Origin: Anastrepha obliqua
Taxonomy: Eukaryota; Arthropoda; Insecta; Diptera; Tephritidae
Assembly (NCBI RefSeq): GCF_027943255.1
Contig: NC_072893.1
Coordinates: 8,804,001-8,868,000 of the forward strand
Direction of reading: 5' to 3'
DNA: 64,000 bases
The translations under genes were made by a program, and so were the position numbers. Below, piece by piece: positions 6,081 through 64,000 of this stretch. The notes under the pieces were generated by a model, which saw nothing but the letters and a program-made list of their open reading frames with translations, made no database searches and had not been told where the DNA came from. Positions within the stretch are counted from its first letter, which is position 1; the number at the start of each line of letters is the position of its first letter.

Positions 6081-7113
6081 TCAGTATTCCAGGCTTCTGC
6101 AGAGTTTCACTTGTATTCGTTCAACGCGTTTGATTGCAGAGTCAGTAAAAGGAGACCAGATTACTGTGCCATATTCCAGAATTGGAAGGACTAAGAAGGA
6201 GAAAAGTCTCAGTAAGGTGTTGGGATTTGTGAAGTTCTTGCTGGTTCTAGTAATAAAACCAAGAGTTTTAAACGCTTGGAGAGTAACCTTGTTAATATGT
6301 TTGTTAAATGTCAATCTGTTGTCTATGATGATACCTATTTACATAGATCCTTTATGCTGTCGATTTCACTTATTGCCTCGTTGTTTAAATTGTAGTTGGT
6401 TAAAGTACAGACGTGCGATCTTGAGATAGATACTGCTCCACACTTTTTGATATTCAGGCCTAGTTTGTTTCTGCTGCACCAGGCCGACAATAAGTCAATA
6501 TCACTCTGGAGAATTTTGATGTCTTTTACACTAGTAATCGATCTGAAGATTTTTAAGTCGTCCGCATATAGTAGGTACTCAGACTGTAAATGATCGCCAA
6601 TGTCGTTAACGAATATGTTGAACAGAGTTGGACCCAGGTGTGATCCTTGGGGCACACCCGACGATACATCATGCTTGGTGGATAGATGACCATCCACCCG
6701 CACTTGAAATTGCCTTTCAGATAGATATGAGTGGACCCAGCCCAGAGTATTGCCTTGAATACCGTATCTGTTGAGTTTATTTATCAGGATACAATGATCG
6801 ACCCTATCGAATGCTTTGCCAAAGTCCATGTAGATGGTGTGCACTTCGGTTCCTTCGTTTAGCGCTTCTTGGAGGTAGTTGACATAGATAAACAAATTCG
6901 AAGTAGTAGATCTCCCGCCAACAAACCCGTGCTGCTTGTTGGTGATAACGTTCGAGAAAAATGCTGTGAGTTGGGGGAGAACTATTTTTTCAAAGAGTTT
7001 AGCGAGAGAGGATTGTACGCAGATTGCTCTATAGGACCGTCCTTGTAAATGGAGCAGACGTAGGAGGATTTCCAAACTGTTGGGAAGGTACCGGTTTGTA
7101 GAGAGAAATCAAA
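6081..7113 (-). pseudogene. CR1-type LINE reverse transcriptase segment
   Basis: Reverse transcriptase fingers and palm of the LINE. The minus strand shows SSLAKLFEKIVL, HGFVGGRSTTSNL, MDFGKAFDRVDH (catalytic Asp block), SGVPQGSHLGPTLFNIFVND and LLYADDLKIF (the catalytic YADD). The thumb follows, with SAWCSRNKLGLNIKKC. A frameshift separates the N-terminal KSSYVCSIYKDG block from the rest. Without the inserted element, the reading continues from 8414 to 7113. Confidence 0.85.
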
Positions 7114-7115
7114 TA

Positions 7116-8411
7116 CAGGGTGGCTGATGAAAGCCGCTACCAAAACAAAATTGAATAACTTTTTTTCTTTTTAAGTTATCTGTTCCATTTTTGTTTTAAT
7201 TTGCAGATTGATCTTTAAAATTTATTAAAATGGATAACTGGGACACGCAAACAAGAATTTGGATAGTCCGCCGCTATCACGCACTGGAGTCCGTAGTTTT
7301 GGTACAGAGAGAGTACAGGCGGATGTTTGGCGGCGGTCCCCCGAGCAGAGGGACCATAATAAGACTGGTGAATAATTTTGCTGAGCAAGGAACAGTCGCA
7401 AGAAGGCCTTATCATCGAAACCCACCAGTTCGGACGGAGGAAACGATCGCTGCTGTAGCTGCAGCTATACAAAGCAATCCAAGGGTTTCAACAAGAAGCT
7501 TATCTGCTCAACTTGGTGTCAGCCGACAGTCTTTGCAAACAATAATGCACAAAGATTTAGACTTATTTCCCTACAAAATTCAAATGGTTAACAAACTGAA
7601 TGCAGGAGACTTGCCGATTCGCTTGGAATTTTGCCAGAAGATCCTGCAAATGGTGGAAGAAGACCAAAACATGTTAAACTGCCTTTTCATGTCTGATGAG
7701 GCCCATTTCGATTTAAACGGCAATGTGAACAAACAAAATTGTCGAATATGGAGTACTTCTAACCCACAGATACTCCACGAGACGGAATTGCATCCTCTTC
7801 GCGAGACAGTGTGGTGTGCGGTTTCTTCACGCTGTATTGTCGGGCCTTATTTTTTTTGAGAAAATGGTCACACCGTTACGGTTACTGGAGACCGTTATTT
7901 GAAAATGCTGAATGCTATCCAGAACTACGCCGAAAGAGAATTCCTTTCAACTCTGTGTGGTTTCAACAAGATGGGGCAACGTCTCACATAGCCCAGACTG
8001 TTATGACAGAGTTGTGACGAAAATTTCCCAATAAACTGATTTCAAGAAACTCCGAATTTCGTTGGCCTCCCAGATCGCCTGACCTTACTGCACCTGACTT
8101 TTTCTTATGGGGCTTATGTAAACAAGAAGTTTATAAAACAAAGCCAACAAATTTGGATGAACTAAAACAATCCATTCGGGCAACAATTCCTGTCGCAACT
8201 CTCAAGGCAGCAATGAACAACTTTTTACTAAGATGCCGCACTTGTGTCAACGAGCTGGGGGGCATTTAAATTCAATTATTTTTAAAACTAGTTAAGCTAC
8301 ATTTAATAAAATTTAATGACCTTCAACTTGAAAAAAAAAATGAATGAATTCCATATACTAAAAAAAAAGTTATTTGAGTTTCTTAATGTAGCAAAATTCA
8401 TCAGCCACCCT
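7116..8411 (+). mobile_element. mariner-like element inserted in the LINE, TA duplication
   Basis: A 1,296-bp element whose ends CAGGGTGGCTGATGAA (7116 on) and TTCATCAGCCACCCTG (to 8411) are inverted copies. TA (7114-7115 and 8412-8413) flanks both sides. The LINE reading frame resumes on both sides (ATSHISHI before, FDFSLQTGTFPTVWK after), proving it inserted after the LINE. It encodes one decayed Tc1/mariner-superfamily transposase. Confidence 0.95.
7230..8269 (+). pseudogene. Tc1/mariner-superfamily transposase, frameshifted
   Basis: Open for the first 209 residues from ATG 7230: an N-terminal helix-turn-helix region (YRRMFGGGPPSRGTIIRLVN), then LGVSRQSLQTIMHKDL and the first catalytic Asp in FMSDEAHFDLNGNVNKQNCR. 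After about 7857, two frame changes and a TGA (8015-8017) break it. Remaining blocks are VWFQQDGATSHIAQ (second Asp) and WPPRSPDLTAPDFFLWG (third acidic position), 36 residues apart counting the stop. It ends CRTCVNELGGI before TAA. The family resembles insect elements with the NKQNCR motif. The small element at 42499-42858 carries the same FSDEAHFHL block. Confidence 0.85.
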
Positions 8412-8413
8412 GT

Positions 8414-9515
8414 ATATGTGTGAGATGTGGCTGGTAGCACAGTTTTTGAGGAAGGTGTTTGGTAGCCCATCCGGGCCAGCACCTTTCTTTGTATTCAATG
8501 TCAGCAGTGCTTTGTAAACATCATTTATATTAATCTTGAAATCGGTGATAGTATTAGTCGGCCTGTGTCCTAGATCCGTTCACGTTAAGCCTCGATGCGG
8601 ATCCTGATTATATACACTCTTGAAAAAGGATGCGAACATGTTACTAATCTCAATGCCGGAGTCAGCCGACAGATTATTCCAAGTCTTATGTTTAATGAAT
8701 TTCCAAAATGCACATGTATCAGTCCGAACCTGCTGCTCAATCATATCTATATAATTTTTGTAGCATAATGTGTTGAGCTCCTTGCACTCCCGTCTAAGTT
8801 CACTAAATTTTCTATAGTACAAATTAGTATCGTTTTTCTTGTATTTCTTGCAGTTGGAATGAGCTTCTTTCTTGAGTAGTGTTTTGAATTTTAATTCACT
8901 TGAGAACCAGTAAGGGAAGTGACTTGTTTTTTGGACACGCACAGGAACATATGATGAGATGCCTTCCTGGATTATGTCATAGAGTACTTTTATTTTGCAG
9001 TCTAAAGTGCTTGATGAATAAAAGTTAGACCAATCAGCGTTTACGAAGAAGTTATTGAGATTATCATAGTCACCGTTCTTGAAATCATAGTAAGTCGGTG
9101 TTGCAGGCTTTAGACTGGGCTGAAGCTCGATAGTGATATCAAGAGCAGGGTGATACAGATTCATCGTGGTGATTGCTTGAGTATATTCTACCTGAATAGA
9201 AATGTTACTAAAGCAGAGATCAAGCAAGTTATTATTATCGATATGGACACTGTTAAATTGTTGGCATTCCAGCGAAGAGAAACCTTCGTGTACAGAATTT
9301 TCACAATAAGTGCAGGGTGAGCTGCTGGGAAGGTTGAAGTCGCCAGTGATAAGGAGATTTGCGGCACTAAGTTTTTCCTTCAGATAGTGAAGCGTATCAA
9401 TGAATGTCTGGACAGCTGCGAGTGAAGCTCTCGGAGGAAAGTAGACGCACCCGACGATGATATCAGAACTATTGAACTTCAATTTTACGTAGATGTGTTC
9501 TTCAGCTTCAAGCAT
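8414..9515 (-). pseudogene. CR1-type LINE endonuclease C-terminus and linker
   Basis: The minus strand reads IIVGCVYFPPRA and LLITGDFNLPSS, the apurinic endonuclease core that nicks target DNA. NNNLLDLCFSN and a long linker follow, then the start of the reverse transcriptase (KKGAGPDGLPNTFLK). The first third of the endonuclease is missing. One TGA stop lies at about 8580. It continues into the RT segment beyond the mariner-like insertion. Confidence 0.8.
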
Positions 9516-19327: not shown

Positions 19328-20625
19328 CGAGGGGTGCCTTTTATATGTCGGGATTTGGCAACCCTGGTATTTCAATCTGGCAACTCACAGCTGTTTCGCA
19401 AAGTTTGACATTTTTTGGCTTTTACGTACTCAGAACGTTTTGAAATACCAGCGCTATTTGTGTTGTTTACAGTAACTTAAAAGATTCATCTCGGTCCAAG
19501 AATGGAATTAAATCGTAAACATTTTCGTGCGATTATTTTTTACAACTTTCGACGTGGATTAACTCAGCAACATTGCATGGATGAACTTAATTCATTTTTT
19601 GGCGATGAAGCTCCATCAAGGACCAGTGTTTATCGATGGTATGGTGAATTCAATCGTGGTCGTAGTTCACTCCAAGACGAATTTCGTGAAGGTCGTCCAA
19701 AATCAGTTGTTGTTCCGAAAACCATTGATGCTGTGCGCGAACTGATATTGCAAGATCGTCATGTGACCTATTGTGAGATTGAGACACTCTTAGGCATTAG
19801 TGGGACCAGCATACATTCAATATTGCATAAACATTTGACTGTCAAAAAAATTTGTTCGCGTTGGATCCCACACAATTTGTCAATCGCTCAAAAAAGGGCT
19901 CGTGTTGATTGGTCGAAGGAAATGGTCAAAAAATTCGATCGTGGGGCTTCGAAACACGTCTATGACATCGTGACAGGTGATGAATCATGGATTTACGCGT
20001 ATCAGCCCGAAAATAAACAGCAGTCGACTGTATGGGTGTTTCAAGATGAGCCAAATCCAACAAAAGTTGTTCGCGCACGAAGAACTTCCAAGCAAATGGT
20101 CGCCTGTTTTTTCGGAAAAACTGGACATGTCGCAACCGTACCACTAGAACAACGCAGAACAGTAAATTCTGAGTGGTACACAACCATTTGTTTGCCAGTT
20201 GTCTTCCAAGAAATTAGGAAAACCAATCGCCAAAGACGGATCACTCTTCACCAGGACAATGCGAGCTCTCACACATCGGCTCAAACAATTGCATTTTTGA
20301 GCACCCAAAACATTGAATTAATGGGTCATCCGCCGTATAGTTGTGACTTGGCACCGAATGACTTCTTTTTATTCCCGTACGTAAAAACCAAACTGAGAGG
20401 TCAACATTTTTCGACACCTGAAGAAGCGGTTGCGGCATTCAGAATGCATGTTTTAGAGGTACCTCATTCAGAGTGACAAAAGTGCTTTAACAATTGGTTC
20501 AAAGGCATGCAAAAGTGTACTCTTATAGATCTTCATGGAGAATATTTTGAAAAACAATAAAGTGATTTTCGATAATTAAAATTTGTTTTTGTTCTCTAAT
20601 CCCGACATATAAAAGGCACCCCTCG
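19328..20625 (+). mobile_element. Nearly intact mariner nested in an older mariner
   Basis: A 1,298-bp element with 28-bp identical inverted ends beginning CGAGGGGTGCCTTTTATA, flanked by TA on both sides (19326-19327 and 20626-20627). It is inserted in the 5' leader of the minus-strand mariner at 18736-20796. The near-perfect ends and almost open gene indicate a recent insertion relative to its surroundings. Confidence 0.95.
19502..20476 (+). CDS. mariner transposase, one premature stop near the C-terminus
   Basis: The open frame is 324 aa; mariner transposases are about 345. It binds the inverted ends and cuts and inserts at TA. N-terminal paired-like region: FRAIIFYNFRRGLTQQHC and APSRTSVYRWYGEF. 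Linker: the WIPHNL mariner signature. Catalytic D34D core: first Asp in TGDESWIYAY, second in LHQDNASSHT, third in YSCDLAPNDFF with exactly 34 residues between the last two. The usual YSPDLAPSD signature reads YSCDLAPND. A TGA at 20474-20476 stands where related proteins have Trp, and the frame stays open for another 28 codons to TAA at 20558-20560. Loss of these residues may or may not abolish activity. The subfamily is not assigned. Confidence 0.93.
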   Translation: MELNRKHFRAIIFYNFRRGLTQQHCMDELNSFFGDEAPSRTSVYRWYGEFNRGRSSLQDEFREGRPKSVVVPKTIDAVRELILQDRHVTYCEIETLLGISGTSIHSILHKHLTVKKICSRWIPHNLSIAQKRARVDWSKEMVKKFDRGASKHVYDIVTGDESWIYAYQPENKQQSTVWVFQDEPNPTKVVRARRTSKQMVACFFGKTGHVATVPLEQRRTVNSEWYTTICLPVVFQEIRKTNRQRRITLHQDNASSHTSAQTIAFLSTQNIELMGHPPYSCDLAPNDFFLFPYVKTKLRGQHFSTPEEAVAAFRMHVLEVPHSE

Positions 20626-46409: not shown

Positions 46410-47857
46410 ACTACGTTTTTATTCAAAAATTATTTGAATTTCTTTTTATTATGTTTTTTTTTTTTTTAATGAGAATTTGCATAAAATAAAAAAGCAAAAC
46501 AAAACATATTGTCAATTTTTCATATATCTTTTCTAAGTATGATTTCAATGCCATTGCGGCACGTGATAACGGTAATTTATCGGTATGAAACTTTAGGAAA
46601 TATTTTTTTTTATCAAAAACAACATAATGAGAGATTCCTGCATTGAAAATTTTGATTTCGAAAAATAAGGACCACCCTAATATATATATATATCTTTATA
46701 TATATATTTCTTATGTTCGTGTGTTTGTCACTGAACTCCTCCTAAACGACTGAACCGATTTTGATGAAATTTTTTGTGTGTGTTCAATGGGATTCGAGAA
46801 TGGTTTAGATTCACAATTTGGTCTCCTGGAAAATGTTTTTTTAATTAATTTTTTAATAATAAGTAGTTGTTAATTTTGGAATGTTTCACATTGGATCCGA
46901 TAGACTGCGCTATCATCGCAGCGTCAAATATTAAATAATACTTTATTTCAATTTCAGTCTGTCCCGACAGTTGGCGCTGCGATCGAATTGAGAGAAATAT
47001 TTTGTTATAATTGCGTTATTTAAACAGCGTGCTGAATCAAATATTAAATCAACAGTTACTAATTGTTAAAAAAGTTTTGAAGTGTGCATAAGAAACAATA
47101 CATTTTGCGACTTTAGTGCAGAATCGAAGTGAGTATATTTCTTATGAATTTGTTTATGAAATTTACACGTGCGTTGATTAATTACCACTCTAACCTATAA
47201 ATTTATTTGTGTTTTATACGCGTCATTAATTTCTAACTGTTAGAAGACTTAGTGAAAAATAAAATGATAGAAATGAATAAAAAAATAGAAAAAATTTATG
47301 AATATGAGTAAAAAAGCATAAAATGAAATATTAGAAATTTAGAATCTGTGTCGATTAAAAATTCGTCCAAATAAAAATCCGTGCAAATAAAGAGACAAAC
47401 CTTACAAGTGAATAAATAAAAATCCATAAAATTAATAAATTCAATAAAAGTTAAATTTCATAGACAACATATGGAGCTTCTTTGTGTTATCCATAAAATT
47501 ATATTTTTATTTAATTGTTTGATTAAACGGATTTTTATTAATTTACTTTCAATATTTGCCTCTTGATTCACACGGATTTTTATGTGGACAGATTTTTCAT
47601 CGCTATAGATTTTATAATAATGAATATTTTATTATATGCTTTTTTACTTATATATTCATTTCTTTAAAGAAGTATTTTTTAATCATCTACATTTAATGAT
47701 ACAGATTGTATTTAGATGGATTTTTATTTTTCACTTAATTTCGAAACAGTCAGAAATTAATGACGCAGATAGTAGCTCATTAATTTCATAATGAATTTTT
47801 TACATTATTTTTATATTCGTTGTGCATTATTTTGTAGTATTTTTCTTTTACAGAAAA

Positions 47858-50800
47858 ATGCCACGTCTTCGTGGAAGAGCGAAAAATATTGGTCGACGTA
47901 CTCGGAATGCGCAATTGGTCCATGATCGTCGATTAAATAGATCAGTTGAAGAACTCTTGACGGATAATGTAAATTCCAGAGATCAAGTTGCATGTTCACG
48001 AGCAAATGAAAATTCAGAGCAACGCGTTCGACGTCTTCATGCTAATACATTAAGACAACGAGAGGCACGTCAACGACTGACCGACGCACAGAGAGAACAT
48101 CAAAATCGGCAAGTGCTCGAAAATCGAACATTGACACGAGCATCACTTAGTCGTCTCGCGTTTGAATATGATCCTAAAATAGACTATTCGTCACATGCAC
48201 TAATCACGATAGGTAGTATGGACAAAGAGTGTAAATATTGTCATGCTTTTAAGTACAAAGGTGAATCGGTTGGTTTATGTTGTGCGTCTGGAAAAATTTC
48301 ACTGCCATCGCTAAATCCACCACCAGAACCTTTAAAAATACTTTTAGCCGGAACCACATCTCAATCGAAATTGTTTTTGCGGAAAATTCGTAAATTTAAT
48401 TCATGCTTTCAAATGACATCATTTGGAGCAACAAAAATCGTCCATAATGAAGATGGTTGTAATTTTGAATCTACATTCAAGATTCAAGGTCAGGTATACC
48501 ACCAAATTAGTTCATTGCTTCCAATGCCTGATGCCGATCCAAAATTTCTACAAATTTACTTTATGGACGATGAGGAGCAACAATCACATACACGCTGTGT
48601 TTACAACCATATAGAGCAGATGGAAGAACGAGAAATTGTGGATATTTTACAAACGTTTTTGCAAAATCATAACCAATTGATACGATTGTTCAAGACTCTT
48701 TCTAACAGACTGCAAAACGACAAGTACGTCATTGTCATTAAAGCAGACAAAGTGCCCTATGGCGAACACGCAGGTACATATAATGTTCCAACTATTAATG
48801 AAGTTGCAGTTGTTATGGCTGGTGACCCATGTGAACGGCGAGACATTCGCATACAACGCAGAGATGATACGGTGCAAATAATTCAAGACAATCATCGTTC
48901 TTACGATGCTTTGCAGTATCCATTGATATTTTGGGAAGGAGAAGATGGATATTATATCAATATTAAACAAAGGAATCCAACTACAGGTACAATTCATAGA
49001 TTATCTAACAATTTTTTTTTTTTCTAAATCCATAATTTCTGTTTATCTCATAAATATATTTATTTGCAGGTGAAGAACTGAACAAGAAAGTTAGTGCTAT
49101 GAACTTTTACGCATATCGACTAATGATTCGTGCTAATGAAGACAATAACATTCTCCGATGCAGACAGCTATTTCATCAATACATTGTCGATATGTATGTA
49201 AAAATCGAAAGTGAGAGATTACGATACATAAAATTTAATCAAGCAAAACTTCGTGCTGAGGAGTACATTCATTTGCGTGACGCCGTAATCGGTAACGTAG
49301 ATGCAACGAATAACATCAACAATATCGGGACCGCATATATTCTCCCGTCATCATACATTGGTAGTCCGCGCCATATGCAGGAATACATTCAAGGTGCCAT
49401 GACCTACGTACGTGCATACGGCCGACCAGATCTTTTTATTACATTTACGTGTAATCCAAACTGGGATGAAATTAAAAATTTGCTGTTGCCAGGTCAAACA
49501 TCGATGCACCGTCATGATGTCACTGCACGTGTTTTTAAACAAAAATTAAAATCTTTGATGAATTTAATTACTCATCACTCGGTATTTGGTAAAACACGTT
49601 GTTGGCTTTACTCGGTTGAATGGCAAAAACGAGGCTTACCTCATGCGCATATTTTAATTTGGTTGGTGGATAAAATACGCCCAGAAGAAATTGACAAAAT
49701 TATTTCAGCGGAAATTCCAGATCCGAACATTGATCAAGAATTGTTTGACATTGTTACTACTAATATGATCCATGGTCCATGTGGTACTCTAAACATAATG
49801 TCACCATGTATGGATAATGAAAAATGTACAAAGCGTTTTCCAAAACCATGTGAAACTGATACTATCACTAATATTGATGGCTATCCATCTTACCGACGTA
49901 GAGACGTAGACAATGGTGGTCAATCATATGAATTACGTCTGTCAAATGGTGTAATAGTAGATATTGATAATCGCTGGGTAGTCCCATATTCACCATTGCT
50001 GTGCAAAACCTACAAAGCGCACATTAACGTCGAACTATGCAGTTCAGTGAAGTCGATCAAATACATTTGTAAGTATGTTCACAAAGGTAGTGATAAAACT
50101 ATATTTGCTGTTCAAAATATAAACGACAATGACGAAATAACACGTTATCAAATGGGTCGATACATAAGTAGCAACGAAGCTATTTGGCGCATTTTTACGT
50201 TTCCTATCCATGAAAGGGATCCTGCTGTGATACATTTGTCTGTGCATCTTGAAAACGGACAACGTGTTTACTTCACAGAAGAGACTGCACTACAACAGGC
50301 TTTAACGGCTCCAAAAACAACTCTTACTGAATTTTTTAAACTTTGTAGTCGACAAGATGTTGTTGGTCAATTCGCAAGGACATTAATATACGCTGATGTT
50401 CCTAAATTTTTTATATGGAATAAACAATCAAAAAATTGGGAACCGCGGAAACGAGGCACTCCAGTCTCAGGATTCGCTGACTTATTTATGACAAATACGT
50501 TAGGTCGATTATATACAGTTCATCCGAAGCAACGCGAATGTTTTTTTTTGCGTTTATTACTGGTTAACATTCCTGGACCAACGTCCTTCCAATATTTGCG
50601 AAAAGTCAATGGTATTTTGTACGACACTTTCTTCGATGCGTGTAGAGAGTTACATTTATTGGAGGATGATAACCATTGGGACCTCACACTTGCAGATGCA
50701 GCACTGAGCTCATCTCCACAACAAATCCGGCAATTATTTTCAATAATATTAACAACGTGTTTTCCGTCTGACGCATCTGCTCTGTGGAACAAATATAAAG

Positions 50801-52392
50801 ATTCAATGAGTGAAGATATTTTGCATCGGACTAGAATTGCTAATCAAAATCTTAATATTGAATTCTCCGCTGAAATATACAACGAATCATTAATAATGAT
50901 TGAGGATATTTGTATTCTTATTTCGAACATGCCGCTCATCCATTTCGGAATGCCAGCGCCGAACCGCCCAGCGGTAGATATCATCAATAGCGATGTTCAA
51001 CGTGAACACCAGTTCGATAAAACTTCTTTGGCTACTTTTGTTGCTAATAATGAACAATTGCTTACTGCTGAACAACGAAATGTATATGATGAAATTGACG
51101 TATCAATTACAGCACAACAAGGTGGTTTCTTTTTTTTGGACGCACCAGGTGGCACTGGTAAAACATTTCTCATCTCACTGATACTTGCGCGCATTCGATC
51201 ACAAAATCATATTGCGTTGGCCGTTGCTTCATCAGGTATTGCAGCAACGTTACTTCATGGTGGACGGACTGCCCATTCAGCACTAAAATTACCTTTGAAT
51301 GTTCATACAAATCCTGAAGCAATATGTAACATAAAGAAGCATTCAGGCATGGCTGAAGTTTTGAGAAAATGCAAAATTATTATCTGGGATGAATGTACAA
51401 TGGCCCACAAGCATTCGCTCGAAGCTCTCGACAGGTCTCTGAAAGATATCAGAAATAATGCTCGGCTTTTCGGTGGTGCTCTACTTCTGCTGTCTGGTGA
51501 TTTCAGACAAACACTACCAGTCATTCCACGTGCGACATATGCAGACCAAATAAACGCATGTTTGAAAGAATCTTATTTATGGCGAAGTGTCACTAAATTA
51601 TGCCTTACTCTTAATATGCGCGTTCAACTTCAGAATGATCCATTAGCATCAGGATTCGCTGAACAATTGTTAAACATTGGCAACGGTAAAATTCCATTGT
51701 ATGAAGATACACAATATATTCGACTACCAGAGAATTTTTGCAACATGGTGGCTACCAAAGATGAGTTAATAGAAAGTATCTTTCCAGATTTGAAACATAA
51801 TTATACTAATCATGTATGGCTGCGAGAGCGAGCTATTTTAGCCGCAAAAAATTTAGATGTTGACGCCATCAACTTTAAAATACAACAGTCATTGCCTGGT
51901 GATGAAATTATATTTAAATCGATTGACACGGTTGTTGATCCTGACGAAGTTGTCAACTATCCTGTAGAGTTTCTAAATTCACTAGATTTATCCGGAATGC
52001 CACCGCATAATTTGCGGCTGAAAATTGGCTCACCTATAATTTTGCTTCGAAATTTAAATGCCCCAAAATTGTGTAATGGCACGCGATTAGTTGTAAAAAA
52101 AATCATGGGCAACATTCTCGAAGCCACTATTTTAAGTGGAAAATTCCAAGATGAAGTTGTACTTCTACCACGGATCCCAATGATTCCTTCAGATTCACCT
52201 ATACCATTCAAACGTTTACAATTTCCAATCTGCTTGGCATATGCTATGACTATAAATAAGTCACAAGGCCAAACAATGACAATTTGTGGCTTAGATTTAG
52301 AAAATCCGTGTTTTCTCACGGCCAATTATATGTTACGTGTTCTAGAGTTGGAAAACCATCGAATTTGTTTATTTATACACCTCAAGGCTTAA
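47858..52392 (+). CDS. Helitron Rep/helicase protein, one late frameshift
   Basis: Two exons: 47858-48986 and 49070-52392, split by an 83-bp intron (G|GTACAA ... TTTGCAG|GT) that restores PTTGEELN. About 1,483 aa before the shift. ATG 47858 follows a TTTTACAG acceptor, so a leader intron is likely. N-terminal zinc-finger-like region: CKYCHAFKYKGESVGLCC. HUH nickase: GLPHAHILIW (HAH near 49642) and the two-tyrosine KYICKYVHKG (near 50062). Helicase of the Pif1 type: Walker A APGGTGKTF (near 51145), Walker B IIIWDECTM, GDFRQTLPV, and late motif YAMTINKSQGQT. A single base is missing near 52312. In the next frame HGQLYVTCSRVG and the normal end continue to TAA 52425-52427. The final SRV motif is therefore out of frame, and helicase activity is probably lost. 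Confidence 0.93.
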
Positions 52393-58962: not shown

Positions 58963-59401
58963 GTTAAATTGTAAAATTAAAATTGTAACTAAGAATTCTC
59001 CGTAGAGCGTTTTTAAAATTTGCCGAAATAAGAGATTTTACAAATTTTGAGATACCTATTTCCACTCAAACAACTATGATTTATATAAAATTACGTACAA
59101 TAGGGTGTTCAAAAGTATGGCCATTTGTAGAAATTGGAAAATTTATTTTAACTTAGAATATTTATTTCAGAAGCATACATATGGATGTATACAATATCAA
59201 ATAAGCTCAAAAAATTTTTAATAAAATAAATAACTTAAGTTTATTTTCGAGCCACAATCGATAGCAGCAGACACTTGCGAAGTTTTGTACAGCTCTTGGC
59301 CCGCCCTTTTTGGACGACTCAGAACTCACCGCGTGAAGGTGACTGTACGACGAGTTCCACCCACTCCCTTCCCAACCAACCAACCAAAGATGAAAAATTA
59401 T
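58963..59401. other. Intergenic; one transposon-end-like motif
   Basis: AGGGTGTTCAAAAGTATGGC at about 59103 looks like a transposon end. No inverted partner was found in the window. Confidence 0.35.
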
Positions 59402-61393
59402 TTATTCGGGAGTGGCAAAGTCTGCTTTAGTGTCAAATTGAGGCATAACTGTACTCACTTCTCGTGCTGCTCTTATAAACCCATCACGTCTCTCGTTCCC
59501 ATACACTTTTGAGGACGCTTGAGTTACTAGTTTTACGCAACGCTCCACAGCTTGCGTATGGCATGGAATATTTGTTAAATCTATGGTTAATTTAGGTTTT
59601 TCTTTATCAGAAATTAATTGCAAGATATCTTCAGAAGAAAGGCTGTCTAAAATTGGAGGGCAGGTAAGTTTCATTTCAGACCAATTAATTAACTCAAAAT
59701 ATTCATTTGCTTCAAAGTTCAGTTTAGGAACCAAAAAGTTTCTAATATTTTTGTCTTTTGAAGGGATTTCTTTTATTTTCAGAACTCGCCTCAATCCAAG
59801 ATCGCGGACATGCTCTCTGTCATCCACCACCATCGAGAGAAGAATGTTTTCTGGATGGGCAAAAAAGGAATTTGTTTGAATAACCTTATGAACTACTGCC
59901 TGGACTTCTGAAGATAAGATTCTACATTTTTTAATACATTCTAAAATATGTTTAGGTCCGTCAACTATTGACGAATTTGTTTTGATTTCGAACCATAGAG
60001 GTGCGTATACAGTCAAAATGTATTTTACAATTTGAATGAGATTTTTAGATGGCTCCTGCAAAGAAATGTATAATCGTAGGAACCTGTTTGCAATTGTCAA
60101 CCAACGAGAGTGTGATATTGGTCCCGGATCTCGATTTGCTAGATCTGGGGAGATCTGGGGATGCCTCAAAGGTAATTCATTAAAATGGAGGAGACAGATA
60201 GCCCCTTGTACTGGTCTTTTTAAACGCGTTTCAATGAATTTTATTGCACCATTCTTCCACCCAGTATTTGTTGACGTACCATCACATCCAATCACTACAA
60301 CATTAGATTGATTTATACCATTTTCTTCAAAATAATTTACAATGCTGTATGCTGTGTCCTTTCCACTTTTTGAAGTAGGCACTAAATGACAAAGGTACTT
60401 TGAGCCTGGTTCTGCTGTTACTGAAATGTGCTCTTCTTTTTTTATAGATTGATAACGTTTGTTTCCTTTTTCAACTAAAACTAAAGTGTCATCCATCCTG
60501 CCATCAAAATACACACACATCGGATCGTTTAATTGCTCTATTGCATTCCCCGATTCGATAAGTTTTAGTCTACATTTTTCTTTTTCTCTTCTCATTTTGC
60601 TTCGATCAACAACAAAAGAAGTATCTTTGTCCGTTATAAGACCAACGTCTTTAAATGCACTAGACACAATAGCTGCTGCTGCTCTATCAGATACTCCAAA
60701 ACGATCACTTGTTAAGGCCGTTGCTGGAAGTGATAAGCGCATCTGTGCATTTTTTGAACTTGCTGACTGAGAGGAAATAGAGCGTGGGGTCTGAAAATCG
60801 GGATCATTCTTATCATTGTCAACTTCAGGAGTTATCTCTGTTTCAGAATCAATACTACTACAAGAAGGTCCAGGTAAGTTGGTCTGACTTAAGTGACGAG
60901 CTTTTCTCTGCAATTTTAATGTAAGCTTTTGAGTTTCTTTGGTATCTACTGTCCCAATCTTTCCTTGTCCGAGATATCTTTGAGCATATAGAAATTTGAT
61001 TTCTAATGGCGGTATCTTTCTATCTTTAGGGCATGTGCAGTTGATAGTTACCGGCCTGGGACAAATACACTTGTCAAAGCTTCTTTGATAAAAGCAATTG
61101 AGTGTCATCTCGCACTTGCAGGACGAAATGTCAAATAATGTACTTGAAGATTGTTCAATAAAATCATTGTACTTCTTTTGTTTCTCAGGTGTGTCTTTGT
61201 CCCTTGAATAAGATTTACGAAGAGTGTAGTATCGATCATGTAGATGTTTAATCTTTTGTACAACTCTTGTGTGGGAAACTATTGGAATCGAAGCCTTGGA
61301 ATAAAGGGACTCAGTCTGATGAGCTACAGTATCTGCTACAACTGTGAAGCTTAACTTCTGACCAGAACTGGCAGCAGAAGATTCTACTGACAT
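59402..61393 (-). CDS. Putative DDE transposase-like protein, 663 aa, open
   Basis: An uninterrupted minus-strand frame. The first ATG is at 61393 (MSVESSAASSGQK). Residues about 92-121 form a Cys cluster (CKCEMTLNC, DKCICPRP, INCTC), probably metal-binding. Candidate RNase H-fold triad: Asp297 in VYFDGRMDDTLV, Asp371 in VIGCDGTSTNTGW and Glu617 in CHTQAVERCVKLV. Between the last two lie LLHFNELPLRH and DLANRDPGPISHSRWLT. The join LPLRH|PQISPDLANRD looks shortened compared with relatives I remember, suggesting an in-frame internal deletion of some tens of residues. The C-terminus MPQFDTKADFATPE looks complete. It seems related to 44835-46409 (shared D, NTG-type and ERGVKL/ERCVKL positions). 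No superfamily name is assigned; a domesticated gene cannot be excluded. It is transcribed away from the RAG1-like gene at 62390. Confidence 0.75.
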   Translation of the reverse strand: MSVESSAASSGQKLSFTVVADTVAHQTESLYSKASIPIVSHTRVVQKIKHLHDRYYTLRKSYSRDKDTPEKQKKYNDFIEQSSSTLFDISSCKCEMTLNCFYQRSFDKCICPRPVTINCTCPKDRKIPPLEIKFLYAQRYLGQGKIGTVDTKETQKLTLKLQRKARHLSQTNLPGPSCSSIDSETEITPEVDNDKNDPDFQTPRSISSQSASSKNAQMRLSLPATALTSDRFGVSDRAAAAIVSSAFKDVGLITDKDTSFVVDRSKMRREKEKCRLKLIESGNAIEQLNDPMCVYFDGRMDDTLVLVEKGNKRYQSIKKEEHISVTAEPGSKYLCHLVPTSKSGKDTAYSIVNYFEENGINQSNVVVIGCDGTSTNTGWKNGAIKFIETRLKRPVQGAICLLHFNELPLRHPQISPDLANRDPGPISHSRWLTIANRFLRLYISLQEPSKNLIQIVKYILTVYAPLWFEIKTNSSIVDGPKHILECIKKCRILSSEVQAVVHKVIQTNSFFAHPENILLSMVVDDREHVRDLGLRRVLKIKEIPSKDKNIRNFLVPKLNFEANEYFELINWSEMKLTCPPILDSLSSEDILQLISDKEKPKLTIDLTNIPCHTQAVERCVKLVTQASSKVYGNERRDGFIRAAREVSTVMPQFDTKADFATPE

Positions 61394-62389
61394 TTTGTAC
61401 CTCACTTCTTGCCAACATTGTATAATGTCGGTATTAGTGGGAAGGACCGATGACAGCAGTGGTTTAGGTGCACCAAAAAATGGCAGTAAGAGACATGAAT
61501 AAAATGTTTCAAGAGATTTAATGTTAAGTAATTGTGTAAACTATGTAATTCAAAAGAACATCGAATAGAATTTTTTTTGACCAAACAGCGCTGTTCGACA
61601 AGAGTGAAAGCAGAACTGGTAATGACCAGAGAGTACTAGCTCTTCCGTGCACTTCGTTTATCGGTATGCCAGAATCAAAAGCAAAATGAAAAGAAAGACG
61701 ATGGAATACAAGTAACCAAGTGGAAGACGATCTAAAGCACAGACGTGTTGTAGTAGCCGTAAGCCGCTTTCACGCAAGCCTCATTTGGCATAGGCTTCCT
61801 TAGTAGATTTGGTGTAAAATTGGTAAAAGTTAATCGCTCAGAACCACAGAAATGGATAGATTAGTAAATTAAAAATCTACTACTCAATGCTGAAAGTGCT
61901 ATGTATAAAAAGGGAGCTCGATCTTTAATCATTTACAACTTCTACAAGTTTTCGTAAATCAGCTAGATTTGGGATAAAATTTGTAAATTTTAAATGCAAT
62001 GCGCGAACGGAAGATATTAACCGATTTGAAATTTCTTTTTTTTCCTAAATTTGTATTGATATGCAGCAACTTTTCCCTGCTATTACGATATGATTTGAAA
62101 AAATTTACGTATTTCACTCCGGTCTAGTAGACATTGCATAATTAGGCGGCCAAAAGTTAAAAAAAATAAATCAACTTAAGAAGAAACTATTGATGCACAT
62201 TGTTACCTGACACTTCTTAGAAACCCACCCCATTAATTTCAGCTCTCAGAATAGCGCACGCGCCGAATTACAGGTAGTCGGATTTCAATTGTCATTCACA
62301 GTGTGCATATATAATTCTCGGCGTTTTCCGTGATACATTTTTACAAACTCAATATTTATTTTTGCAAATTTATTTTCACAGTGATTGTG
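61394..62389. promoter_or_regulatory. Shared upstream region of two divergent transposase-like genes
   Basis: 996 bp separate the two start codons. No coding content was recognised. The right side holds a TATA-like box 76-82 bp before the 62390 start. Nothing comparable was identified for the minus-strand gene. Confidence 0.4.
62308..62314 (+). promoter_or_regulatory. TATA-like box of the RAG1-like gene
   Basis: TATATAA, 76-82 bp upstream of the ATG at 62390. A transcription start about 30 bp downstream would leave a leader of about 45 bases. Confidence 0.45.
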
Positions 62390-64000
62390 ATGGATATCAA
62401 TAATCCAGGTATGTATCTTCATTAGTTATGTAGTAGTCACCAATTTTAAGATTGTTTTGTATATATTAGAATCTTTATAAAAGATCACGTTTTTTGAGTT
62501 AGATTTTTGTAAATTAAATATTTTAAAGGGGTTTATCACTATTTTCCCTGTTCGTCCCTGTAATATTCTTTAATTTCATAATTTGTGCATAGTTTAAACA
62601 ATTATATAAAGTTATAATTAGCCGCCAACTCCCGCCTATTAACAAAAACTAGTTAATCAAAGACTTAAAGGACATACCTTAAAAAAATTATGTTATTAGC
62701 ACATTATTTTTAAAGTAAGTTTTTCTTTGTCGTAGGTTCATCAAGCGCCTCTAGTGTGAAAGTAGTGACGCGAAGATATTTATTTGACCTGATGCAAGGT
62801 CAAAACTTACCTACCTTGGATAAAAAATTAGATTTTTTGGAAAATTACCTTCTCGAGGTTGTAAAGTTTCTGAAAATTGTAAAAAAGCTTTAAAGCATAA
62901 ATATTCCTATTTTAAATCACAAATGAAACAAAGAAGGTCAGGAGCAGGAAAAACTAAAGAAGTATTCCTTAAAAATAATCATTTATGGTTAGAAGGGACT
63001 TTTAAAATACCAATGGATTCATCTTATCGCCAAGGTCGTCCATGTACATCGTTTTCTGAATCGAGTGATCGAAGCAAGAGAAGGAAAACTAAGGAAATAC
63101 GTAGTTTGGTAAATCCTGAGGTGATTGTTAATGCTGCGCAAGTGATTTTACAAACTGAGGGAAAAAGAAATGCCTCTAAAGTCCTTAAGGACATAACTTA
63201 TTCACCTACACGGGCTAGCAAATACATAAAGTCATACTCTAAGAGTAATGAGACAATTCCTCCACTCACCCCCTTTGAAGCTCTCAAATTGTTTGTTGAG
63301 GCTGATCTCACAAGGCGACAATACGAAATAGTAAGGGCAACAAACAAGGGTCATTATCCCTGTTATGATCTTTTATTAAGAGCTAAAAAAGAATGCTATC
63401 CACCTGAAACGGCTATGAAAATTACAGCTACCTGCGCGGAAACGGACCTTCAAAGTCTAATGGATCATACAGTAACCCGTTTATCGCTTTACCTAGAAGA
63501 GTTGTTAATTACTCTTAGTATAACCGAAAGAGAGTCGTTAAATATTATTTGCAAATGGGGTTGTGATGGCTCACAACAACAGAGGTTTAAACAAAAATTT
63601 GTAGATGATGTCGACTCTGATGCAAATATATTTTTAAGTTCGTTTGTTCCCTTGCAAGTGGTTTGTGGAAAGAATGATAAAAAGATTGTTTGGCAAAATC
63701 CTACACCTTCTTCGCCACGCTTTTGTCGGCCGATTCGGTTTAGGTTCGTGAAAGAAACCCCTGATGTAACCAAGGACGAAATAACATTTGTGGAAAATGC
63801 TATTAAAGCTCTAACTTTAACCGAAGTATTTATAAATGGGAATATTTATAAATTTAATCATATTATGAAGATGACCATGGTTGATGGAAAAGTGTGTAAC
63901 GCAGCAACTAACACAACCTCAACAAGTCGGTGTTACATATGTGGGGCCACCTCAAAAAACTTTAATGATTTAAGTAACAAAAATGTTGTTTCTCCTGAAG
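62390..64000 (+). CDS. RAG1/Transib-like DDE transposase, partial (runs off the window)
   Basis: Exon 1 (62390-62408, MDINNP) joins exon 2 (from 62736) across a 327-bp intron (G|GTATGT ... CGTAG|GT). A one-base loss near 62857 breaks the frame. From about 62860 to 64000 it is open without a stop, over 370 codons; an internal Met is at 62923. The core matches RAG1/Transib transposases, which cut DNA as DDE enzymes. KWGCDGSQQ has Asp at 63565, cf. RAG1 D600. After FCRPIRFRF and IYKFNHIMKM comes MTMVDGKVCN with Asp at 63883, cf. D708. RCYICGATSKNFNDL has Cys at 63931 and 63940, cf. C727/C730. There are 105 residues between the two Asp; RAG1 has 107. The catalytic Glu and the paired His lie past the window. 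Family by motif alignment from memory; the frameshift suggests a recently inactivated copy. Confidence 0.75.

Follow-up and report, generated by a model that had tools for sequence, protein, structure and literature searches.

A Transib-type transposase gene at the edge of a window of Anastrepha obliqua DNA

The right edge of the window analysed here (a whole stretch of 64,000 nucleotides of Anastrepha obliqua DNA, G000:C2:8804001-8868000) almost certainly carries a Transib copy, a cut-and-paste DNA transposon whose transposase gene is nearly complete. The copy belongs to a known kind, of which it is an ordinary representative and not a new lineage, and its core is well preserved. RAG1, the enzyme that shuffles human antibody genes, has Transib as a known relative. 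An earlier note on this DNA, made from the letters alone, had proposed a RAG1/Transib-like transposase and allowed for a distinct RAG1-like lineage. Features of the copy and of its neighbours are listed in Table 1.

Table 1. Features of the Transib copy and of the elements inserted into it (positions beyond 64,000 are extended coordinates)
Feature	Position	Strand	Basis
hAT-like DNA transposon (class by 8-bp duplications)	59279-62126	-	copy comparison, inverted ends
667-aa ORF of hAT-like transposon	59402-61405	-	ORF list
Transib element, family A copy, in-window part	62127-64000	+	comparison with siblings L010-L013
5' TIR remainder	62127-62155	+	29-nt inverted match, 93%, to sibling L010 3' end
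Likely first coding exon, 19 nt (ATG...CCAG, then GTATGT)	62390-62408	+	read from sequence
Exon 2, N-terminal part (acceptor AG 62734-62735)	62736-62922	+	sequence and sibling comparison
Transposase ORF, part within window	62923-64000	+	ORF list, HzTransib match, alignment A1
GRP and basic segment (GRPxxxFxxxxxRSKRRK)	63034-63105	+	alignment; sits ahead of core
Catalytic Asp 1, D247 (RAG1 D600 equivalent)	63565-63567	+	structure-chain matches, alignment A1
RFCRPIR block, aligned with RAG1 C-K/R-P-L block	63718-63738	+	sequence comparison
Catalytic Asp 2, D353 (RAG1 D708 equivalent), in MVDGK	63883-63885	+	structure-chain matches, alignment A1
CYIC, presumed zinc-ligand Cys pair (C369, C372)	63931-63942	+	CYLC at same HzTransib columns
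BEL/Pao retroelement, 6636 bp	64774-71409 (L014:774-7409)		LTRs, ORF matches

Transposase reading frame and catalytic residues

The frame of more than 370 open codons that had been seen to reach the window end without a stop is indeed present. From the ATG at 62923 it stays open to the window end and continues for 767 bases beyond the edge, up to a stop codon at 64765-64767 (614 codons from that ATG). Measured from stop to stop, the frame has 647 codons, and the completed protein comprises 646 aa.

Analysis of this protein located the Asp of the CDG motif (63565), the second Asp (63883) and CYIC-GAT (from 63931) exactly where the earlier note had put them. CxxC follows the second Asp at a distance of 16 residues, as had been counted (C369 versus D353); both Asp residues were placed correctly too, but they are 106 residues apart (247, 353), not 105. 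The FCRPIRF block, supposed to stand at the site of CCKPL in RAG1, is aligned with the RAG1 C-R/K-P-L block. Agreement with RAG1 had been described as almost one to one: the D/D/CxxC order is shared, but zebrafish RAG1 CxxC is offset by three residues in the HMMER alignment. Extension to the right, suggested as the way to the catalytic Glu and the His pair, recovered both. Codons of H536 (64432) and H541 (64447), which make up HxxxxH, and of E562 (64510) are situated just past the window edge, while D, D, C and C codons are inside the window. The entire RAG1-type set of DDE triad, CxxC and HxxxxH, by which Transib is recognised too, is present in the completed protein. We take RAG1 counterparts of the triad to be D600, D708 and E962, paired by HMMER alignments. 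RAG1-type catalytic order is thus readable from raw sequence at the window edge.

Conservation of these residues was evaluated in alignment A1, whose seven rows include HzTransib and families of the same genome. D247, E562, C369, C372, H536 and H541 are identical in all seven rows and D353 in six, the exception being L033 with Tyr. Structure prediction of the window piece, run without an alignment, reached a mean pLDDT of 36, too low for use.

Relationship to Transib, ProtoRAG and RAG1

To place the completed protein, we compared it with solved structures. HzTransib (PDB 6pqn) is matched over residues 148-622 with E 9.2e-110 and 371 bits, which rules out chance; ProtoRAG RAG1L (PDB 6b40) is matched with E 5.4e-6 (29 bits) and zebrafish RAG1 with E 2.2e-5 (27 bits). 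Since the match to HzTransib, the sole Transib from outside this genome in our comparison, is far stronger than those to ProtoRAG or RAG1, we conclude that the window protein is a Transib transposase. The proposed RAG1/Transib-like identity is further confirmed by the Pfam RAG1 profile (PF12940), on which the completed protein scores 29.6 bits (cut-off 25); only three of the seven rows of A1 match this profile.

The earlier note had also suggested a profile search against RAG1, ProtoRAG and Transib. All three were matched, HzTransib by far the best. With profile A1, ProtoRAG is detected (6e-13), as is zebrafish RAG1 (2e-9); its 1.5e-228 to HzTransib is circular because HzTransib is one of the seven rows. 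The 359-residue window piece alone yielded no RAG1 match in the Pfam search and RAG1 at only 0.081 among solved structures, which partly bears out the warning that the open frame is easily missed, but it finds 6pqn at 6.9e-40.

It is highly improbable that the protein belongs to a distinct RAG1-like lineage apart from Transib, for instance a ProtoRAG/RAGL-like one. Such a lineage would display the similarity detected here to ProtoRAG (5e-6) and to zebrafish RAG1 (2e-5), as well as the Pfam RAG1 match; nevertheless, 371 bits to HzTransib are opposed to 29 and 27 bits, and siblings of the window copy have CAC-starting TIRs and 5-bp duplications. Moreover, ProtoRAG carries a RAG2-like partner, for which full-length siblings of 2.9-3.0 kb offer little space. 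The distinct lineage was therefore not borne out, and closer relationship to RAG1/RAG1L than to Transib was rejected on the bit scores. In viral contigs, 26 stretches fitted a pattern, with no relatives among them.

Family A siblings and target duplications

The Transib copy belongs to family A, one of five families that we labelled A-E within this analysis. It shares 98-99% identity over blastn matches with four siblings, two of them full-length (L010, 3025 bp; L011, 2894 bp) and two internally deleted (L012, 1908 bp; L013, 2020 bp). A 300-bp segment from the 5' end of family A gave 12 matches in the genome. Terminal inverted repeats of the siblings are imperfect and start with CAC (CACAGACGTAG... 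and CACGTAGGTAG...); the sequence at sibling ends is CACAGACGTAGACATTGCATAATTAGGCGGCCAAAAG and, on the opposite strand, CACGTAGGTAGATTTTGCATAATTAGGCGGCCAAAAAG. Flanks of all four siblings are duplicated on both sides (CATCG, CGCCG, CGTCG and CGTTG). TIRs, 5-bp duplications and hairpin chemistry are hallmarks of Transib.

In the window copy, the first 7 nt of the sibling 5' tip are absent. Transib sequence continues to 64773, and the 3' tail with its TIR is found at 71410-71785, followed by CGCCG. Inverted repeats and 5-bp duplications, which the earlier note wished to see checked, are thus present in siblings; for the window copy itself no target duplication can be read because its left end is interrupted, and it retains the right flank CGCCG only.

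Transib families in the genome

Further, we searched the genome (836 Mb, 204 contigs) for related sequences. At least 128 matching stretches were found with the window piece (113 of 1142 candidates scored) and at least 70 with the longer protein (68 of 1919 candidates scored). Open frames of at least 590 codons occur in 19 of 34 loci (L016-L049). Target duplications were scanned in 30 loci of the five families, using end patterns derived from the copies and leaving out L021, L044 and L045. Matching 5-bp duplications flank 24 of the 25 elements with both ends found: 4/4 in family A, 11/12 in B (16 scanned), 4/4 in C, 3/3 in D and 2/2 in E (3 scanned). The sole exception is L036, with unequal CGCCG and CGCTG. 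Judged by eye, all matching duplications but one (CGCTC) fit CRNYG (23/24).

Protein identity of the window copy amounts to 60-63% with families B, D and E, 43-44% with family C and 41% with HzTransib. An unrooted tree groups families B, D and E together with the window protein and puts HzTransib nearer to family C; with one outside Transib included, this tree cannot place families A-E among all Transibs. Nine family B copies (L023, L025-L028, L030, L034, L039, L040) combine unbroken frames of 683-688 codons and 94-99% protein identity with identical duplications of 5 bp, suggesting recent activity. Family C ends are CACTGTG and CACAGTG, the latter being the RSS heptamer consensus. The family C element L046:588-4264 has ends CACTGTGG and CACAGTGG, and in family C elements repeated stretches are situated about 121-122 bp ahead of the 3' end.

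Gene structure and nested insertions

The probable first exon, whose ATG at 62390 is the start given in the earlier note, is likely spliced to 62736 onward, judging from the sequence and from frames of L018 and family B that extend upstream with a similar N-terminal motif. One base present in all four siblings is missing from the window copy at about 62857, and the N-terminal part of exon 2 is therefore out of frame with the core. Because its left end is broken and its N-terminal exon frame-shifted, the window copy is most likely a relic.

The left end is disrupted by a separate hAT-like transposon that ends at 62126 (...CACTCCGGTCTA), exactly at the start of the remaining Transib sequence. 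Copies L050, L051 and L052 match it up to exactly 62126 and then diverge. Its inverted ends are 199 bp long and start with TAGACCGGAGTG; the L050 and L051 copies have their far ends at L053 and L054, both of which contain a 199-bp inverted match to 61928-62126 (90-91%). The 8-bp duplications of these two copies, read by eye, are CTGTAGAT and ATGTATAT, both of nTnnnnAn type, the duplication rule for hAT. In the window, the 8 bases following the transposon, GTAGACAT, fit nTnnnnAn and equal the Transib tip from position 8 onward, which places the insertion 7 bp inside the 5' TIR. The far end of the transposon was not found in the window, as the copy match stops at 59279 and pattern searches were negative; neither the displaced left Transib tip nor the left duplication was found by a pattern search of the window. 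Pfam gave no matches for the 667-aa ORF, and open frames in other copies reach 776 codons. The transposon is high-copy: at least 107 stretches match it (66 of 863 candidates scored), the majority with 94-99% identity. Four of its copies are arranged in a row, about 8.66 kb apart, at G000:C6:17.30-17.33 Mb.

On the opposite side, a retroelement is inserted 6 bp past the Transib stop codon, with ATAAG on both sides. It is identified as BEL/Pao by ORF matches to Pao peptidase A17, DUF1759 and DUF5641; reverse transcriptase and integrase fell below curated cut-offs. Its LTRs (635 and 576 bp) align with 1 mismatch in 576 aligned positions and 59 gap columns. This LTR retroelement is young, with a single LTR mismatch in 576.

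Other candidate elements were noted in the window by eye: two ORFs (401 and 1097 aa) at 47822-52392 look Helitron-like, a 324-aa ORF at 19502-20476 resembles mariner transposases, and a pair of ORFs on the minus strand (246 and 311 aa) at 6335-9515 look like pieces of a non-LTR retroelement.

Selection and domestication

Core sequences of the window copy and L010 differ by 4 synonymous (389 sites) and 20 non-synonymous (1453 sites) substitutions, those of the window copy and L011 by 5 and 23, respectively. Such substitutions look neutral, as expected under drift, with no sign of retention; hence nothing points to domestication. At the DNA level the copy diverges by 1.3-1.6% from L010, L011 and L012, and by 3.9% from L013, where the alignment looks misplaced next to the L013 deletion.

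One might suppose that the copy is a domesticated Transib-derived gene, retained by the host and with its ends blocked by other elements. Both ends are in fact interrupted, and among the matches listed this is the sole family A copy with an unbroken core ORF (in four others among those listed, a single frame extends no further than residue 440). However, youth of the copy alone may explain the unbroken ORF, and the lack of synonymous excess against siblings, the small DNA difference from L010, L011 and L012 (1.3-1.6%) and the base lost in the N-terminal exon make domestication extremely unlikely. It was rejected, since neither sibling divergence nor substitution counts give any sign of it.

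N-terminal GRP/RSKRRK segment

A segment common to the five Transib families, GRPxxxFxxxxxRSKRRK followed by AxxxxLxxxGxxxASxV and SPxRAxKY, begins about 78 residues ahead of the core. In RAG1, GGRPR belongs to the nonamer-binding domain, N-terminal to the RAG1 core, and it is visible in the RAG1 segment compared. The whole-protein profile aligns the GRP segment with GGRPR weakly (1.0 and 0.5 bits in two RAG1 chains). The N-terminal profile has no matches among PDB chains, and a score of 12.8 against a 64-residue RAG1 segment was reached by 10 of 200 shuffles; homology of the N-terminus to the nonamer-binding domain is thus no more than a lead. It is doubtful that the segment could be a counterpart of the RAG1 GGRPR domain predating the Transib/RAG split. 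If true, an end-binding domain would be older than this split.

Proposed history of the copy

The transposase encoded by an intact copy would be of DDE type, with RNase H fold and zinc-binding insert. This enzyme is expected to pair two CAC-starting TIRs, to cleave them through the nick-and-hairpin route of HzTransib and RAG, and to insert the element into CRNYG-like 5-bp targets, giving rise to target duplications of the kind seen in siblings. The window copy probably entered a CGCCG site. Later, the hAT-like transposon would have inserted into the 5' TIR 7 bp from the tip, and BEL/Pao 6 bp past the stop codon.

Comparison with known systems

The present Transib family adds to comparative material on RAG origin, the genome containing at least five families with many unbroken copies; the accepted Transib-RAG picture is unchanged.

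Within the genome, families B-E share with the window copy 43-63% protein identity, matching 5-bp duplications and ends starting with CAC, but their TIR sequences differ from those of family A. HzTransib of Helicoverpa zea (6pqn and five related entries) is about 41% identical over a nearly full-length core transposase, with the same catalytic and zinc columns. The first matched residue is 9 in the solved chain and 148 in the window protein, which, in contrast to HzTransib, has an extra N-terminal part with the GRP/RSKRRK segment. Likeness to ProtoRAG RAG1L is weak (only 29 bits) and is seen around the first Asp and around the His pair and Glu. Vertebrate RAG1 core has the same order, D - C-R/K-P - D - CxxC - HxxxxH - E. 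Similarity to it is, however, low (zebrafish, 2e-5), and whereas RAG1 is a host gene, the sequence described here is a multi-copy element with TIRs.
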